Below, one piece after another: positions 1 through 49,115 of a stretch of 64,000 bases of DNA. Below the pieces are notes generated by a model. The model was not told where the DNA came from. It worked only from the letters and a program-made list of their open reading frames with translations, and did no database searches. The translations under genes and the position numbers were made by a program. Source of the stretch: Planococcus maritimus. GTDB lineage: Bacteria; Bacillota; Bacilli; Bacillales_A; Planococcaceae. Where the stretch lies: NCBI RefSeq assembly GCF_001687625.2, contig NZ_CP016538.2, forward strand, positions 2,138,501-2,202,500, written 5' to 3'. Positions within the stretch are counted from its first letter, which is position 1. Each line of letters opens with the position of its first letter.

Positions 1-442
1 CTATGATGTATTGCTTGAAATCGCTGAGGAAGCGGAACTGGACCAAGACGAGTTCAAAGATGATTTCCATTCAGTTCATAGCGCTAAAGCATTCCAATGC
101 GATCTTCGGATCACTAGGGAGATGGAAGTTTCTGAAGTACCAAGCATCGTTTTTTTTAATGAATGCATCGAAGACGAAGGCGTCAAAGTTTCTGGCCTTT
201 ATTCATACGACGTCTATCTGACCATCCTACAGGAAATGCTAGGGAAAGACCGGCTCAACCGGCAATCCCCGCCTTCTCTCGATGACCTATTCGTTAAGTA
301 CCCAACGATGGCTACTCATGAAGTCGCGAGTATTTACAATATCAGCGAACAAACGGCTGAACGCGAACTGAAAAAACAAGTGCTGCAACAGAAACTAGAA
401 CGCATCCCCCTGCAGGATGAAACATTATGGAAAGTAAAATAA
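1..442 (+). CDS. spxH: SpxH (YjbH) adaptor protein, 3' part
   Basis: C-terminal part of the DsbA-like adaptor that hands the regulator Spx to ClpXP for degradation in the cytoplasm. The frame is open from base 2 to the TAA at 440-442, with no start inside the window, so the gene is cut by the edge. About 146 residues remain; the N-terminal thioredoxin-like half and its Cys motif are outside. Recognition rests on sequence resemblance and on position: convergent with pepF, near coiA, mecA and spx, as in B. subtilis. The stop codon lies inside the 41-bp repeat that forms the terminator. Its substrate Spx is encoded 5 kb away. Confidence 0.85.
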   Translation, partial: YDVLLEIAEEAELDQDEFKDDFHSVHSAKAFQCDLRITREMEVSEVPSIVFFNECIEDEGVKVSGLYSYDVYLTILQEMLGKDRLNRQSPPSLDDLFVKYPTMATHEVASIYNISEQTAERELKKQVLQQKLERIPLQDETLWKVK

Positions 443-475
443 GCTAAGCTCCTTTTGGGAGCTTAGCTTATTTTT
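441..475 (+). terminator. Intrinsic terminator of spxH, left copy
   Basis: Perfect 12-bp stem 441-452 / 458-469 with loop TTTTG, followed by TATTTTT. It is part of a 41-bp segment (435-475) that recurs at 716-756 with one mismatch. Confidence 0.9.
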
Positions 476-715
476 CAGGCTGTCGAGAAAGGTGAAAAGT
501 CGTATTTTCCGAAGCTTATCGCTCGCTTTCCGTGGGCTCGCGCCCAAGCCTCCTCAGCCGCTACGCGCCTTCCGGGGTCTCGGTCGTCTCGCTTTACCAC
601 TGGAGTCGAGCGAACGCTTCTCCAAATACTTAGAGAGGTCATTGACTGTTGAAGAAAGCAAAAGACGCTATTTTTTTATAGTTGAGAGCAAACCATAGAC
701 TTCTTCAACACTCTG
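476..715. mobile_element. MITE-like element 1, flanked by duplicated terminator
   Basis: A 240-bp non-coding block lies exactly between two 41-bp direct repeats (435-475 and 716-756; 40 of 41 bases identical). Its ends are imperfect inverted repeats: left CAGGCTGTCGAGAAAG, right end on the other strand CAGAGTGTTGAAGAAG. The central part is strongly similar to element 2 at 21279-21516. It encodes no transposase; the open frame at 492-698 has no credible start signal or recognisable product. Non-autonomous mobility is inferred from structure only. IS1182-type elements are a possible mobiliser, because I recall that family being associated with palindromic target duplications. Confidence 0.7.
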
Positions 716-758
716 TAAAATAAGCTAAGCCCCTTTTGGGAGCTTAGCTTATTTTTTT
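716..758 (+). terminator. Terminator, right copy flanking element 1
   Basis: Near-identical second copy of the spxH terminator. One T-to-C change in the left arm shifts the pairing, so CCC pairs with GGG around a bulged A; the T-run is seven bases. Bases 716-756 match 435-475. Confidence 0.85.
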
Positions 759-1186: not shown

Positions 1187-2998
1187 CTATAGATTTTTTC
1201 TAAGCAAAGTTTCCAACTCATCAAGCTTTTGACCAAAAACTTTACAAGCTTCTTCGACTGGTTCCGGCGAGGCCATATCGACGCCCGCTTTTTTCAAGAC
1301 TTCAATCGGATAATCAGAGCTGCCGGCTTTCAAGAACTCGTTAATATAACGTTCAACCGCAGGCTCTCCTTCCTCCAAAATCTTCTTGCTCAAGGCAGTA
1401 GCTGCACTAAAGCCCGTTGCATATTGGAAAACATAATAATTGTAGTAGAAATGAGGAATACGCGCCCATTCCAGGCCAATCTCCTCGTCTACTGCCATAT
1501 CTTCACCGAAATATTTTTTATTTAACTCATAATAGACTTCCGTCAATCGATCAGCTGTCAAAGCTTCACCATCTTGGTCCATCTGGTGGATCGCGTGCTC
1601 GAATTCAGCAAACATCGTTTGGCGGAATACTGTCCCACGGAATCCATCTAGCCAGTGATTGAGCAAATAAATACGCTCCTGCTCATCTTCAGTAGTATTG
1701 ACCAAGTGCTCGTTCAATAAAGCCTCATTTGTTGTCGAGGCAACTTCTGCCACGAAAATAGAGTAATCACCATAAACGAATGGCTGATTCTCTCTCGTGT
1801 AATGACTGTGGACGCTATGGCCAAATTCGTGCGCCAAAGTGAAGAGGTTGTCTACATTGTCTTGCCAATTCATCAAAATATACGGGTTGGTTCCATATGC
1901 TCCTGAAGAATAAGCACCGCTGCGCTTGCCTTTGTTTTCTTTGACGTCTACCCAGCGATTATCGATGCCGGACTTAACGATGCCCACATAGTCTTCACCA
2001 AGCGCGTTCAGGCCATCCAGCATCATGCCGGTCGCCTTGTTATAGGGAATTTCCATTTTGACTTCTTTAACGAGCGGTGTGTACATATCATACATATGGA
2101 CTTGGTCGACTCCAAGCACTTCTTTACGCAAGGCAACATAACGCTGCAATAGATGCAGGTTGTTGTTGACGGTCTCGACCAATTGATCATACACGGCTTC
2201 TGGAATATGATCATCTGACAACGCCGCTTGACGTGCTGATGAATAATTACGGATTCTCGCCTGGACATTATCCCGTTTCACATTGCCCGATAAAGTAGAA
2301 GCAAATGTATTGCGGAATTTTCCATATGTCGCATAGACTGCTTTAAATGCGTCTTCGCGCACGCGACGATCTTTGCTTTCCATAAAGCGAATATAATTGC
2401 CATGCGTAATCTGTACTTTTTCGCCGTCTTCATTTTCGATTTCCGGAAATTCCAAATCAGCGTTATTGAGCATACCAAAGGTTTCAGAAGATGCTCCAAC
2501 GACTTCAGACATTTGTGCAAGCAAGGCTTCCTGTTCTGCTTTCAAGACATGCGGACGCATTGTATTCAGTTCTTCAAGCGCATGTTGGTAAAGCTTCAAA
2601 CCTTTGTGTTCGTCTACGTAACGAACTAGCTCCGCTTCATCCAAAGACAAGATTTCAGGGGTCATATAAGATAAACCTGCGGCTGTTTTAGCAAATAAAG
2701 ATTTAATGCGGCTGTCCATTGCTTGATAAGTCGAGTTTGTCGTGTCCTGGTCATAACGCATATGTGAGTACGCGTACAATTTACGTAAACGCTCAGACAG
2801 TTCATCTTTATAGCTCAGTGCAGCATATAAGGCATCTGGCCCTTCAGATAATGTGCCTTCGTATTGTCCAGCTTTCTCAGCTAAAATCGAAACGGCTTTA
2901 AATTCTTCTTCCCATTGTGAATCAGTCGCAAAAATATCCTCCAAGCGCCAAGTCAGTTCTGCAGGCACTTGATCTCTCGTCATTAATTTTTCCGTCAT
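1187..2998 (-). CDS. pepF: Oligoendopeptidase F
   Basis: Cytosolic M3-family zinc metallopeptidase that trims medium-length oligopeptides. The 603-residue length is normal for PepF. The zinc motif HEFGH lies at about residues 387-391, followed by the downstream acidic region typical of the family. ATG start with AGGAGG seven bases upstream. It is 52 bp downstream of coiA with no terminator between, so coiA-pepF are probably cotranscribed. The function fits with the two oligopeptide importers nearby, which supply peptides. In B. subtilis the same gene (yjbG) sits between coiA and yjbH, exactly as here. Confidence 0.95.
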   Translation of the reverse strand: MTEKLMTRDQVPAELTWRLEDIFATDSQWEEEFKAVSILAEKAGQYEGTLSEGPDALYAALSYKDELSERLRKLYAYSHMRYDQDTTNSTYQAMDSRIKSLFAKTAAGLSYMTPEILSLDEAELVRYVDEHKGLKLYQHALEELNTMRPHVLKAEQEALLAQMSEVVGASSETFGMLNNADLEFPEIENEDGEKVQITHGNYIRFMESKDRRVREDAFKAVYATYGKFRNTFASTLSGNVKRDNVQARIRNYSSARQAALSDDHIPEAVYDQLVETVNNNLHLLQRYVALRKEVLGVDQVHMYDMYTPLVKEVKMEIPYNKATGMMLDGLNALGEDYVGIVKSGIDNRWVDVKENKGKRSGAYSSGAYGTNPYILMNWQDNVDNLFTLAHEFGHSVHSHYTRENQPFVYGDYSIFVAEVASTTNEALLNEHLVNTTEDEQERIYLLNHWLDGFRGTVFRQTMFAEFEHAIHQMDQDGEALTADRLTEVYYELNKKYFGEDMAVDEEIGLEWARIPHFYYNYYVFQYATGFSAATALSKKILEEGEPAVERYINEFLKAGSSDYPIEVLKKAGVDMASPEPVEEACKVFGQKLDELETLLRKNL

Positions 2999-3050
2999 TT
3001 GGCTGCCTCCTCTATCCCTTGTTTAGGGAAACGAATTACATCTCATTTTC

Positions 3051-4130
3051 TCAATTTTCCCACGTTTTTGCAAGCAGATGATAGGAAATATCCACCATTT
3101 TTGAAAAACCAACATATCGTCCATTTCTATAGATAGTTTCATATGCCAAAAGCACCTTAATAAGGGAATGCTTATCCACCGCTGGAGACGCAAGTTTTAC
3201 TAGCCCATCAGTTAATAAAGTTTCTACAGGTTTTCCTGATTCAATCATCAGAGCCGCTTTCATTTGCCAAATGACAGGATGCTCTAAAAACAAATGACCG
3301 CCGGCAAACGGCAGGCCAAAAATCTCTGGAATCGCTTCCCTTTCGAGCTGAAGTTCATAGCTTAAACGCCAAAAGGAATTTCTCATGCGATTCTTTGCAA
3401 ATAATTGAGAACGGAAAAACTTATTGTTTTCTATGCGCATAAGAGACATGGCTTGTGCATACTCTGACGGAGTCACCATTTTCGGGACGGCAAACGGGAA
3501 ACTTTGCGCATCCATCGGCAATACGGATGCCTTGCCGATCCATCTATTTCCTTGTATATAAAAAAGATTGGAGTAATAAAAAAAGAGGGAAAGCTGAGGA
3601 TTAAAATGCAGAAGATGAGGATGAAGTGATGCCCCTCGAAGCATTGCTCTTTCAAAAGGGCGGATATGAAAAATAGTCATTCCTGGAGCTATTAGCTTTT
3701 CTATGCCGCGGATCCATATAGCTTGAAATCCTGACTTTGTGTATCCTTGGCTACGCTTTAGTACTTGCTCGATAGGCAATGTGCTGCACTGAAATTCGAT
3801 TGCTGAGTTTTTGACCAGCAAGTCAGGACGCTGCTTGATTGAGACTAAATATTTTTCGACATGAGCTGGAATGCCTTTTTCACGAAAAAAAGAAGATAAC
3901 TTGAACTTACCTAGCAAGTGTAGCTGTGTTTCCGGTTCACCACCTGGCCTACAGGAGTATTGTTGGCGATGAGCGAAATGGGGGATTTTCCTTGTGCCGA
4001 CCTTTAAGACGACAGGAGCTTTGCACGCAGGACAAACAAAGGTGCCGTTCTGTCGAAGCTCAATTAGTTGTTCTCGTGTATGATGTGCTTGGACTGTAAA
4101 TAATTGACCATTATTGAGTGCTGTCAGTAT
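3051..4130 (-). CDS. coiA: Competence protein CoiA, probable ATA start
   Basis: Competence-induced protein acting on incoming single-stranded DNA. Recognisable features are a Cys pair (CPAC) near the N terminus, the HFAH segment, and the nuclease-like region with DLL and EFQC. The reading frame stays open upstream to a TTG at 4181, but that has no ribosome site. A near-consensus AAAGGAGG (GGAGG at 4140-4144) lies exactly 9 bases before an ATA codon at 4130-4128, followed by CTG ACA GCA CTC. Homologues typically begin M-L/F-T-A, so the Met position corresponds to this ATA. The chosen start gives 359 residues. CTG at 4127 and the upstream TTG are alternatives. Confidence 0.85.
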   Translation of the reverse strand: MLTALNNGQLFTVQAHHTREQLIELRQNGTFVCPACKAPVVLKVGTRKIPHFAHRQQYSCRPGGEPETQLHLLGKFKLSSFFREKGIPAHVEKYLVSIKQRPDLLVKNSAIEFQCSTLPIEQVLKRSQGYTKSGFQAIWIRGIEKLIAPGMTIFHIRPFERAMLRGASLHPHLLHFNPQLSLFFYYSNLFYIQGNRWIGKASVLPMDAQSFPFAVPKMVTPSEYAQAMSLMRIENNKFFRSQLFAKNRMRNSFWRLSYELQLEREAIPEIFGLPFAGGHLFLEHPVIWQMKAALMIESGKPVETLLTDGLVKLASPAVDKHSLIKVLLAYETIYRNGRYVGFSKMVDISYHLLAKTWEN

Positions 4131-21248: not shown

Positions 21249-21278
21249 AAAAAAACTCCTGTTTCCAGGAGTTTTTCG
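21249..21278 (-). terminator. Terminator copy on the left of element 2
   Basis: 30-bp unit: A7, then CTCCTG TTTC CAGGAG, then TTTTTCG. Identical to 21517-21546 over all 30 bases. Because A and T runs flank the stem, it can work in either direction. Confidence 0.85.
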
Positions 21279-21516
21279 CAGGTTGTTGAGAAAGTTTAGA
21301 AGCCGTAATTTCCGAAGCTTATCGCACGACTCCGTGGGCTCGCGCCCAAGCCTCCTCAGTCGCTTTGCGCCTTGCGGGGTCTCGGTCGTCTCGCTGATCC
21401 ACAGGAGTCGAGCGAACGCTTCTCCAACTACTTATAGAGGTCATTAATTGTTGGATATAGAAATGGTTGTCTTTTTTCTTAATAGATAGCGAACTATGAA
21501 ATTTTTCAACACTCTG
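21279..21516. mobile_element. MITE-like element 2, flanked by duplicated terminator
   Basis: 238-bp non-coding block between two perfect 30-bp direct repeats, each a complete hairpin terminator. Terminal inverted repeats: left CAGGTTGTTGAGAAAGTTT, right end on the other strand CAGAGTGTTGAAAAATTT (14 of 18 aligned positions equal). The central part, from CCGAAGCTTATCGC to AGAGGTCATT, is strongly similar to element 1 in the same orientation. The open frame crossing it (21319-21594, minus strand) runs into fabF in another frame and is not a gene. Confidence 0.72.
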
Positions 21517-21546
21517 AAAAAAACTCCTGTTTCCAGGAGTTTTTCG
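21517..21546 (-). terminator. fabF terminator, right copy flanking element 2
   Basis: Hairpin CTCCTG TTTC CAGGAG with a run of seven T on the minus strand, eight bases after the fabF stop. Presumed original terminator of fabHF, duplicated by the element. Confidence 0.92.
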
Positions 21547-21553
21547 ATAAGCC

Positions 21554-22789
21554 TTATACTTTTTTGAAGACGAGTGAAGCGTTATGTCCGCCAAAGCCTA
21601 GTGAATTGCTCATTGCATAAGAGAAATCAGCTGTTCTAGCTTCATTCGGTACATAATCCAAATCCAATTCCTCGTCTGGTGTTTCGTAATTGGTCGTCGG
21701 TGGCATGATGCCTTCTTTCAAGGCCAAAGCCGTGAAGATAGCTTCGATGCCGCCTGCTGCGCCTAGCAAATGCCCTGTCATTGATTTTGTTGAACTCATG
21801 CCGAGCTTGTAAGCGTGGTCGCCAAAGACCGTCTTGACTGCCATCGTTTCGAACATATCATTATAAGGCGTGCTCGTGCCATGTGCATTGATATAGCCGA
21901 TCGCGTCTTTTTCAACGCCTGCATCTTCAATTGCCTGTTGCATAGCGCGTGCTGCTCCTTCGCCGCCTGGAGCTGGAGCCGTAATATGATGCGCATCTCC
22001 AGTGGAGCCATAGCCGACCACTTCTGCATAAATTTTCGCGCCGCGTGCTTTGGCGTGCTCGTATTCTTCCAGAATGACAATACCAGCACCTTCGCCGATG
22101 ACAAAGCCGTCACGGTTTTTATCGAATGGGCGTGATGCCGTTTTGACATCTGCATTCGTTGTCAATGCCGTATTTGCTGTAAAGCCGGCTACCGACAAGC
22201 GTGTGATTGGAGCTTCTGCGCCGCCTGAAATCATGACATCCGCATCTCCACGCTGGATAACCTTAAAGGCGTCGCCGATCGAATTCGTGCCGGATGCACA
22301 AGCCGTTACCGAGCAAGAGTTGATGGCTTTCGCACCGAAGTGGATCGATACTTGGCCTGATGCCATATCGGGAATAATCATTGGCACGAAAAACGGGCTG
22401 ATGCGACGAACACCGCGTGAGTTCAACACGTCCATTTGGTTTTCGATCGTTTCCATTCCGCCGATGCCGGATCCGATCCAAACGCCCGTGCGGAGAGCCG
22501 TTTTCTCATCTAGCTCTAGTTGCGCATCTTTCATTGCCATGATCGATGAAGCGAGTGCGTAATGAGTAAAACGGTCCATCTTACGTGCTTCTTTGCGTTC
22601 GATGTAATCTTCAATTGAAAAGTCTTTTACTTCTGCAGCTACTTTCGCAGGATACTGATCGGCATCCAAGCGAGTTAGCGGGCCTACGCCTGACTTGCCT
22701 GCTTTGACCGCTTCCCATGTGCTTTCCGCACTATTTCCAAGCGGCGATACTGCACCAATACCTGTTATGACGACACGACGATTTTCCAT
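21554..22789 (-). CDS. fabF: 3-oxoacyl-ACP synthase II
   Basis: Condensing enzyme that elongates acyl-ACP with malonyl-ACP in fatty-acid synthesis. 411 residues from ATG at 22789 (AAGGAAG, 8 bases); the frame runs on to 22810 without a better start. The thiolase-fold catalytic triad is complete: Cys164 in VTACASG, His303 in NAHGTSTP and His340 in SMTGHLLG. It lies 27 bp after fabH and shares its FapR-controlled promoter. Confidence 0.97.
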
Positions 22790-22816
22790 TTGATTTACTT
22801 CCTTTCGCATATCCGA

Positions 22817-24235: not shown

Positions 24236-24362
24236 GGCTGATGGGAATGGAGACGGCGACTCCTGCGGGGACAGCGCGAGCTGAAGCACTAGACTGAGCG
24301 AAAGCGAGAAAAGCGGCTGAAGCCGTGCCCGCGGAAAGCGTCCGTCGCACTGGACATCAGCC
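24236..24362. repeat. 127-bp intergenic repeat with terminal inverted repeats
   Basis: Ends are perfect 8-bp inverted repeats GGCTGATG (24236-24243) and CATCAGCC (24355-24362). The GC-rich interior holds an inner palindrome GGCTGAAGCC and further self-complementary blocks. It looks like a dispersed palindromic repeat family that I recall from Bacillaceae and Planococcaceae intergenic regions. It begins five bases after the clpB stop, where no ordinary terminator is present, so its folded RNA may serve as the 3' end. Confidence 0.65.
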
Positions 24363-24367
24363 TTCTC

Positions 24368-47588: not shown

Positions 47589-49115
47589 TTAATAAGAAAG
47601 ATAGTTGGCTGGGTTCACAGCATTGCTGCGCGAACCGTTCCAAGATCCTACATGGATTTCAAAATGTAAATGAGGCCCAGTCGAACGGCCGGTGTTGCCC
47701 ATGCCTGCAATATATTGGCGCTGTTCAACTTTCTGTCCGACTGATACTCCAATCGAATTTAGATGGCCATATACAGTCGCATAAGGTTGCCCGTTAATCG
47801 AGTGGTTAATAATAATGACATTCCCGTATCCGTTCATCGACCCGGCATAGGAGACATACCCGGCAGCTGAAGCCACGATAGGTGTTCCAGGAGAGTTGGC
47901 AATATCGTATCCTAGATGCGTCTCAGCACCGTCCCCGATATCACGTCCACCAAACCCAGATGTGTGACGGCCGGATGCCGGCATGACAAAGTTTGCTGCT
48001 GGCTTGACGACAGGAGCTGGTGTCGGTGTCGGCGTTGGTGCTGGAGTTGGCGCTGGAGTTGGTGCCGGGCTTGCAGTGCTGGCACTTGCTGATGAAGATT
48101 TACTTGCTGCTTTTTCGGCTGCGGCTTTTTCCGCGGCAGCTTTCTCTGCTGCGGCACGTTCAGCTGCCGCTTTCTCTGCTGCGGCACGCTCCGCTGCTGC
48201 TTTTTCAGCTGCGGCCTTTTCGGCTGCGGCTTTACGTTCAGCCTCCGCGATACGAGCACGTTCAGATTCTTCTTCCTTAGCCAATTTCGCCATGCGAGCT
48301 TGCTGTCCCATGATTTGTTTTTCCACTTCAGCGCTGACTTCAAGCGCTTCTTCGTGTTGTGCTTCTAAATTGGTTTTTTCTGAAGCTAAGCGTTTTTGCT
48401 CTGCTTCCATTTGTTTTTTCAACCCAGCTTGTTCTTTCTTCTGGCTATCCAAAGATGCTTTCAGTGAAACAAGTTCTTCGCGGCGTTCTTCCTGGTTGGC
48501 AAGAATCGTTTCAACCGCTTCTTTTTTAGCAGCCAATTCTTTTTTATCCTCAGCTTGTTCGCGCATGATGTCACGGTCAGCCTCAATTAATGTATTGACC
48601 GCTGAAACACGGTCGATAAAATCGATAAAGCTATTGGCACCCAATAAGACATCTATGTACTCAACCGAGCCTCCGCCCATTTGAATTGCACGAGCTCGTT
48701 CTTTCAATAATTCTGTACGCTCGTCAATCTTGCGTTCAAGTTCTTCGATTGCTTCTTTCAACTCATCGATTTCTTCTTTGGTTTGGTCGATTTCAGCTTG
48801 TACAGTATCAATTTTAGACTGTGTTTCCTGCATTTTCTTATCTAATTGTTGGATTTCCGAAACGATGCGGTCAAGCTCTGAAGACGTTTCTTGGATCTCG
48901 CCTTCTTTCTTTTGGATCCCTGAGCTTAAATCTTCTTCTTTTTCTTCCAGCTCTTTACGTTCTTTTTCTAATTTTTGCTGTTCTTTTTGGACTTGCTGTT
49001 GCTCCTGTTCCAATTCATTGAGCTTGCTGCTGTTTGCGTGTGCACTAGGCATGAGCAGAGACAGTGCGAGAATTGATGAAACACCGGACAACATCCATTT
49101 AGACTTCGAATTCAA
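47589..49115 (-). CDS. CwlO-like M23 peptidoglycan endopeptidase
   Basis: 508 residues in four parts: signal peptide (1-27); long coiled coil (about 30-290), the segment by which such hydrolases are held by FtsX; eight alternating KAAAE/RAAAE pentads (about 293-337) and a Pro-Thr linker (about 347-372); C-terminal LytM/M23 zinc domain. Zinc and catalytic motifs HLGYD and HLHFE are present. TTG at 49115 with AAAGGGGG. It lies immediately downstream of ftsE-ftsX, which strongly suggests FtsEX controls it; B. subtilis CwlO has an NlpC/P60 domain instead and is unlinked. Confidence 0.92.
   Translation of the reverse strand: MNSKSKWMLSGVSSILALSLLMPSAHANSSKLNELEQEQQQVQKEQQKLEKERKELEEKEEDLSSGIQKKEGEIQETSSELDRIVSEIQQLDKKMQETQSKIDTVQAEIDQTKEEIDELKEAIEELERKIDERTELLKERARAIQMGGGSVEYIDVLLGANSFIDFIDRVSAVNTLIEADRDIMREQAEDKKELAAKKEAVETILANQEERREELVSLKASLDSQKKEQAGLKKQMEAEQKRLASEKTNLEAQHEEALEVSAEVEKQIMGQQARMAKLAKEEESERARIAEAERKAAAEKAAAEKAAAERAAAEKAAAERAAAEKAAAEKAAAEKAASKSSSASASTASPAPTPAPTPAPTPTPTPAPVVKPAANFVMPASGRHTSGFGGRDIGDGAETHLGYDIANSPGTPIVASAAGYVSYAGSMNGYGNVIIINHSINGQPYATVYGHLNSIGVSVGQKVEQRQYIAGMGNTGRSTGPHLHFEIHVGSWNGSRSNAVNPANYLSY

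Follow-up and report, generated by a model that had tools for sequence, protein, structure and literature searches.

IS1272/TnSha1, of the IS1182 family of insertion sequences (IS), targets hairpins, several of them confirmed terminators, and has no primary sequence specificity (Furi et al. 2016, PMC4923244; here and below, published work is cited from the excerpts consulted). Wan et al. (2017, PMC5678879) presented a stem-loop replacement model, reported both inverted-repeat and other targets, and proposed their pathway a for IS1272; the part of that text consulted holds no natural example of pathway b. IS1182-related transposases have been described as acting with or without target duplication or deletion and on target sequence or structure (PMC12056078), and IS1182 is over-represented between convergent genes (PMC9208149). 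Bacterial miniature inverted-repeat transposable elements (MITEs) are short, non-coding and present in many copies, with terminal inverted repeats and target duplication (PMC10969869). Here, we report a MITE family of Planococcus maritimus, found in a 64,000-nucleotide stretch (the window; contig NZ_CP016538.2, positions 2,138,501 to 2,202,500, forward strand) in which a 238-bp copy lies beyond the 3' end of a fabF-like gene between two identical terminators. Judged from sequence comparison, the family prefers hairpin targets, is flanked by hairpin-length duplications centred on the dyad, has precise empty sites in relatives, and has a partner IS alike in its ends and in the type of duplication around it.

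As with IS1272/TnSha1, an IS1182-family transposase and hairpin or terminator targets would be involved; the difference is that IS1272 takes away part of the hairpin on insertion and duplicates nothing (PMC4923244), whereas here the hairpin is duplicated in full. The mixed target types reported with the Wan et al. model have a counterpart in the non-hairpin exceptions given below (PMC5678879). The excerpts consulted of PMC12056078 and PMC9208149 describe neither whole-terminator duplication nor such a MITE, and that of PMC10969869 describes no MITE with a structural target, in contrast to the structural target and 24- to 41-bp duplication found here. The IS1182 family and its terminator targeting are already known; in the open-licence literature, as far as it was consulted, we found no whole-terminator duplication by an IS or MITE, no co-occurrence of such a MITE with a replacing sister group, and no Planococcus MITEs. 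For the IS1182 family, duplications as long as about 60 bp are recorded in ISfinder, and parts of the finding may be known there.

The features of the fabF-site element and of a second copy, the first element of the window, are as follows (L and G numbers are our handles for loci and genomes).

21249..21278, no strand: target copy 1, a rho-independent-type terminator hairpin of 30 bp, equal to 21517-21546; in G024 and G012 the orthologous site holds this 30-mer once
21279..21516, plus strand: 238-bp MITE (nhmmer family)
21279..21293, plus strand: left terminal inverted repeat, CAGGTTGTTGAGAAA, an end type shared with the IS in L071, L072 and L073
21314..21421, no strand: conserved core with homology to the left ends of two subgroups of IS1182 elements; predicted to form a long imperfect hairpin, whichever strand is folded
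21502..21516, minus strand: right terminal inverted repeat (TTTTTCAACACTCTG on the plus strand); the IS in L071 ends TTTCTCAACACTCTG
21517..21546, no strand: target copy 2 (terminator), 7 bases past the fabF stop codon
21554..22810, minus strand: fabF-like gene (open reading frame, ORF), its 3' end bearing the target terminator
435..475, no strand: terminator copy 1 of the first element, 41 bp
about 476..715, plus strand: first MITE copy, same family as the fabF-site element, with no insertion in 6/6 relatives searched
716..756, no strand: terminator copy 2 of the first element, 40/41 identical to copy 1

The match of one MITE end to the left (transposase-upstream) end of the partner IS sets the plus strand, and the core coordinates are approximate, mapped to the window from consensus columns. 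ORF 21554-22810 is provisionally called fabF-like, from its sequence and an earlier note. Each 30-mer is a stem-loop bearing A and T tracts, and the 238 bp enclosed start with CAGGTTGTTGAGAAA and end with TTTTTCAACACTCTG, an imperfect terminal inverted repeat (12/15 positions, counted by eye). With a minimum length of 90 codons, a single ORF was listed across the element, of 91 codons with a TTG start, and it is taken as chance. Rfam at gathering scores did not match the element; its hits in the window, a T-box and RsaE, lie elsewhere. From its sequence, we class the element as a short MITE without a transposase, with ends as in the IS of L071. A first-pass annotation of the window had described this 238-bp stretch as a relative of the first element, lying between identical 30-bp hairpin terminators unrelated in sequence to the first pair. 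That description was borne out in each part, the two elements being 88% identical over an ungapped 133-nt stretch with their ends now defined, and the 30-bp terminator of one sharing no sequence relationship with the 41-bp terminator of the other.

The genome (a single contig of 3.28 Mb) was searched with the fabF copy, giving 43 matches at 40 places, and an iterated nhmmer model (238 positions) gave 43 hits that covered all 40 loci. Because at least 12 further places were also listed in this genome, the copy number of 40 is a lower bound. Set on the model, most copies had the same terminal repeats and a hairpin on both sides, the hairpin differing from site to site. Similarity between left and right flanks exceeded the 99th percentile of controls (1560 pairings of flanks from different copies) in 34 of the 40 copies and the control maximum in 30. 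The six below the 99th percentile were L007, L013, L022, L035, L036 and L039, with the left terminator still discernible by eye in L007, L013, L022 and L035. A chance origin of the matching flanks, which the first-pass annotation had thought improbable from two cases, is excluded. By simple ORF calling, 22 of the 40 copies were in a convergent, 17 in a co-directional and 1 in a divergent context, and 39 lay downstream of at least one ORF. A strict end pattern, CAGNNTGTTGARAAA, was tried and set aside as too strict for the family, matching 4 genome sites of which 2 were the fabF element's own ends. Near consensus position 128, three of the 40 copies (L035, L038 and L040) carried related inserts, about 73 bp long and each with a small hairpin of its own.

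The geometry of the duplication was measured in a pooled set of 80 copies from 10 genomes (the 40 above and, out of 53 MITE loci fetched from relatives, the 40 that lie in nine of the genomes). Target-site duplications are usually fixed in length by the transposase; here, a flank repeat of 24 to 41 bp (median, 32 bp) was present in 70 of the 80 copies, which is not the IS1272 type of replacement. Dyads were searched for inside the duplication and 5 bp to each side. The repeat was centred no more than 1 bp from the hairpin dyad in 67/70, both of its ends coincided with the palindrome feet (median distance, 0 at each end), and the hairpin score was at least 20 in 67/70. The longer the palindrome span, the longer the duplication tended to be (r = 0.51; p about 5e-6), a correlation that may be inflated, as length and span were taken from the same sequence. 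That duplication length follows the hairpin points to a transposase that reads structure. The longer T tract lay on one strand in 26 duplications and on the other in 33, with 11 ties; the element therefore had no orientation bias relative to the T tract in these 70 and no fixed orientation to the terminator was seen. Group IIC introns, which are retroelements, also insert at terminator hairpins, beside a stem, and to our knowledge do so without terminator duplication.

Related genomes provided the empty sites. Of 29 loci examined for the fabF site, both flanks were matched in 26 and a single flank in 3; the spacing left no room for the element in 22 and was longer in 4 (L089, L095, L099 and L101). 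The identical 30-bp terminator was present once at the fabF site of G024 (97% identity at the locus) and G012 (94 to 95%), and the other relatives had a terminator of different sequence there. At the first-element site, flank matches overlapped by 42 to 45 bp in 6/6 relatives, equal to a single terminator, and at the site of a third copy, L010, a single terminator was read as sequence in 8/8 relatives. The family is not always at the same orthologous locus, as strict vertical inheritance would have it: the fabF, first-element and L010 sites are all empty in relatives. By eye, sites appeared to be shared between species in L131/L142, L133/L135 and L128/L152; shared sites together with empty ones therefore indicate both new insertion and inheritance. 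At the L071 site, 6/8 relatives had a single terminator and no insertion, and the other two (G024 and G004) had the MITE in opposite orientation, in G004 without the left terminator copy. Since nearly every copy is bordered by terminators, the element could be supposed to carry its own at both ends and to bring them when it moves. This is almost certainly wrong: terminators match within copies and not between them (own pairs compared with the 1560 cross pairs), and the presence of the same terminator once in element-free relatives refutes it.

Every observed copy has passed selection, and divergent intergenic sites are nearly absent (1/40), which would suit broad insertion followed by survival of only those copies whose flanking terminators are both left intact. 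Such survivorship leaves unexplained why the duplication stops at the hairpin feet on both sides, and one terminator has been struck in both orientations in different genomes. Among 64 ungapped terminator pairs, 23 were identical and 41 diverged; the changes in the diverged pairs comprised 3 compensatory and 14 one-sided changes that kept pairing, 33 that broke pairing, and 21 outside stems. Selection for keeping both terminator copies is not supported in these 64 pairs (33 changes breaking pairing versus 17 keeping it), and the diverged duplicates suggest that one copy decays freely. On these grounds, we consider survivorship highly improbable as the source of the pattern.

A candidate source of such a transposase was found elsewhere in the genus. 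The NCBIfam IS1182 profile matched in 19 of 40 genomes of the genus, above cut-off in 5, and a contig scan with ORF B of the IS confirmed 5 loci, one a fragment (L108) without usable ends. The MITE ends are common to three IS of the genus (L071, L072 and L073), with left end CAGGCTGTCGAGAAA and right end TTTCTCAACACTCTG or TTTCTCAACAAGCTG, and ends are similar in L106 and L107; the IS left end aligns to MITE consensus positions 1 to 132. In L071, the order is terminator, IS (1590-3249, about 1.66 kb), terminator, MITE, terminator, the first two terminators being identical and the third differing by two bases. In L072 (Planococcus salinarum) the IS lies between two copies of one terminator, and in L107 (labelled Flavobacteriaceae bacterium CP2B) a 32-bp hairpin repeat surrounds it; by eye, the partner IS of L071, L072 and L107 are thus enclosed by whole-terminator duplications. 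The IS of L073 (Planococcus sp. CP5-4_YE) abuts a MITE, and L106 comes from Bacillus sp. 165.

In all five partner IS (L071, L072, L073, L106 and L107), ORF A is followed by ORF B in the -1 phase and ends with A AAA AAG, one codon and a stop, which makes programmed -1 frameshifting probable. ORF A of L071 matched DUF772 and ORF B the DDE domain PF13751, with PF05598 and PF13751 above their cut-offs in these transposase pieces. Searched apart, both ORFs had NF033551 as best match (ORF A, 206 bits, profile positions 10-178; ORF B, 250.6 bits, 234-487); its curated cut-off of 270 applies to the whole protein, and neither piece alone reaches it. On profile match and terminal inverted repeats, the partner IS are assigned to the IS1182 family. 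IS1182 transposases are usually annotated as a single ORF, which the two-ORF partner IS do not fit; this layout was not used to exclude membership. Repeated 54-codon ORFs in L054, L066 and L170-L172 (G009) matched the IS1182 profile over no more than roughly its final 47 positions; they may derive by deletion from another IS1182 element or be cut by contig ends.

We consider it very probable that the MITE is moved in trans by an IS1182-family DDE transposase that prefers hairpin DNA, with the whole hairpin copied to both sides; mobilisation in trans is suggested by the shared ends and target. The transposase would come from an IS that shares these ends, about 1.66 kb long in L071, and would prefer dyad-symmetric, hairpin-forming DNA, in practice mostly rho-independent terminators, perhaps recognised as a cruciform or a single-strand hairpin. 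The two 3' ends of the element would be joined at the two 5' feet of the stem-loop, and gap repair would then copy the entire hairpin to both sides. Strand transfer at this position would correspond to pathway b (PMC5678879), which is the simplest account and fits the dyad centring, the variable length and the absent orientation. Since a terminator is left on each side, upstream transcription can still stop, and insertion is likely to be nearly neutral, with the upstream gene retaining its terminator.

An unrelated enzyme might instead mobilise the MITE, its IS1182-like ends having been captured or having converged. The window genome yielded no full-length partner IS, the IS1182 profile giving only a short fragment with a stop and a PF13751 search no match; the core of the MITE, moreover, is common to IS of two subgroups and is also found alone. 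Against this stand the same ends, target kind and boundary in IS and MITE, and the adjacency of IS and MITE within copies of one terminator in L071, which leave an unrelated enzyme only a slim chance.

Besides the missing partner in the host and the possible inflation of the length correlation, several observations count against transposition into hairpins by an IS1182 enzyme. Ten of the 80 copies lacked a duplication, several of them with one degraded end; 3/70 repeats had a hairpin score below 20 (L030, L031 and L037), and in 3/70 the centre was off by more than 1 bp (L031, L037 and L129). The two terminators flanking L073 are unlike, and ORF B of L107 is split among several frames. By eye, the MITE of L169 has a 9-bp repeat and no hairpin, and the IS of L106 is flanked by a 5-bp repeat (AACAT) alone, also with no hairpin. 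These last two could be read as signs that any A/T-rich intergenic site will serve, with a long staggered cut, terminators being struck because they fill the space downstream of genes, where the copies indeed lie. Dyad centring within 1 bp in 67/70 and a length that varies with the hairpin speak against that reading, and we give it very little credence. For the preferred mechanism, L169 and L106 mean that hairpins are preferred and not required. The two proposals of the first-pass annotation held in the main: hairpin structure appears to be the target, in that terminators differ between sites and are hit at the dyad, though not absolutely, and an IS1182-type element with matching ends does exist, inserted in the same way, in related genomes and not at full length in the host.

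A second IS1182 subgroup (type B; L041, L042 and L068) has ends GGGGCTGTCCC...GGGACAGCCCC, and the proteins of L041 and L042 are about 25% identical to those of the first subgroup. At L068, the one type-B site studied for its empty state, 8/8 relatives had 19 to 31 bp extra in place of the IS; in the four relatives read, the extra sequence was the inner part of a terminator hairpin, the outer stem being kept at the filled site. The type-B IS at L068 thus behaves as described for IS1272 (PMC4923244, PMC5678879). Two related IS groups in one genus give opposite outcomes, as the published cruciform model allows, and the genus offers natural examples of a pathway drawn there, in the part consulted, only as an alternative, together with a sister group of opposite outcome (PMC5678879). 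A second MITE family of about 300 bp, with ends of the GGGGCTGTCCC type, was seen in G000 (L189 and L191-L193) and belongs to this hairpin-replacing subgroup; L187, L190 and L194 in G000 are probably of the same family.

More generally, IS1182 transposases might read DNA shape and work on extruded hairpins, a change in the enzyme setting whether strand transfer occurs at the 5' feet (duplication) or on the 3' side (replacement); we put this at even chances. If it is true, transfer at the 5' feet would preserve the host terminator and let the MITE spread widely, the duplicating and replacing kinds side by side in one genus would be a natural pair for finding the switch, and the family would be an example of genome colonisation at almost no host cost. 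Because the neighbouring gene keeps its terminator, such elements can reach dozens of copies, and a possible use is the placing of DNA just behind genes without breaking them.

The core near the left end is common to the MITE and both IS subgroups; across an alignment of 77 copies, most of its columns are conserved at more than 90%. Either strand is predicted, from folding energy, to form a hairpin that is long and imperfect: compared with 30 column-shuffled versions of each strand, which lose local order as well, z was about -8 and -10. The near-invariance of the core left almost no covariation in these copies. The core was not seen in the IS of L072, L106 and L107 (L106 and L107 by eye). We can guess at its role as a transposase binding site or as a leader limiting transposase expression. 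A solitary core without MITE ends lies in the window at 24237-24367 (minus strand), bordered by GGCTGATG/CATCAGCC and adjoining the 3' end of a Clp ATPase-like ORF, and further core matches outside the MITE are present in the genome. In L196 and L186 of G000, another sequence, which contains CACAGGATGTGGGTCATGCAGC, interrupts or flanks the core copies. Elsewhere in the window, 48090-48248 holds nine overlapping repeat copies at 15-bp spacing, which looks like an alanine-rich coding repeat.
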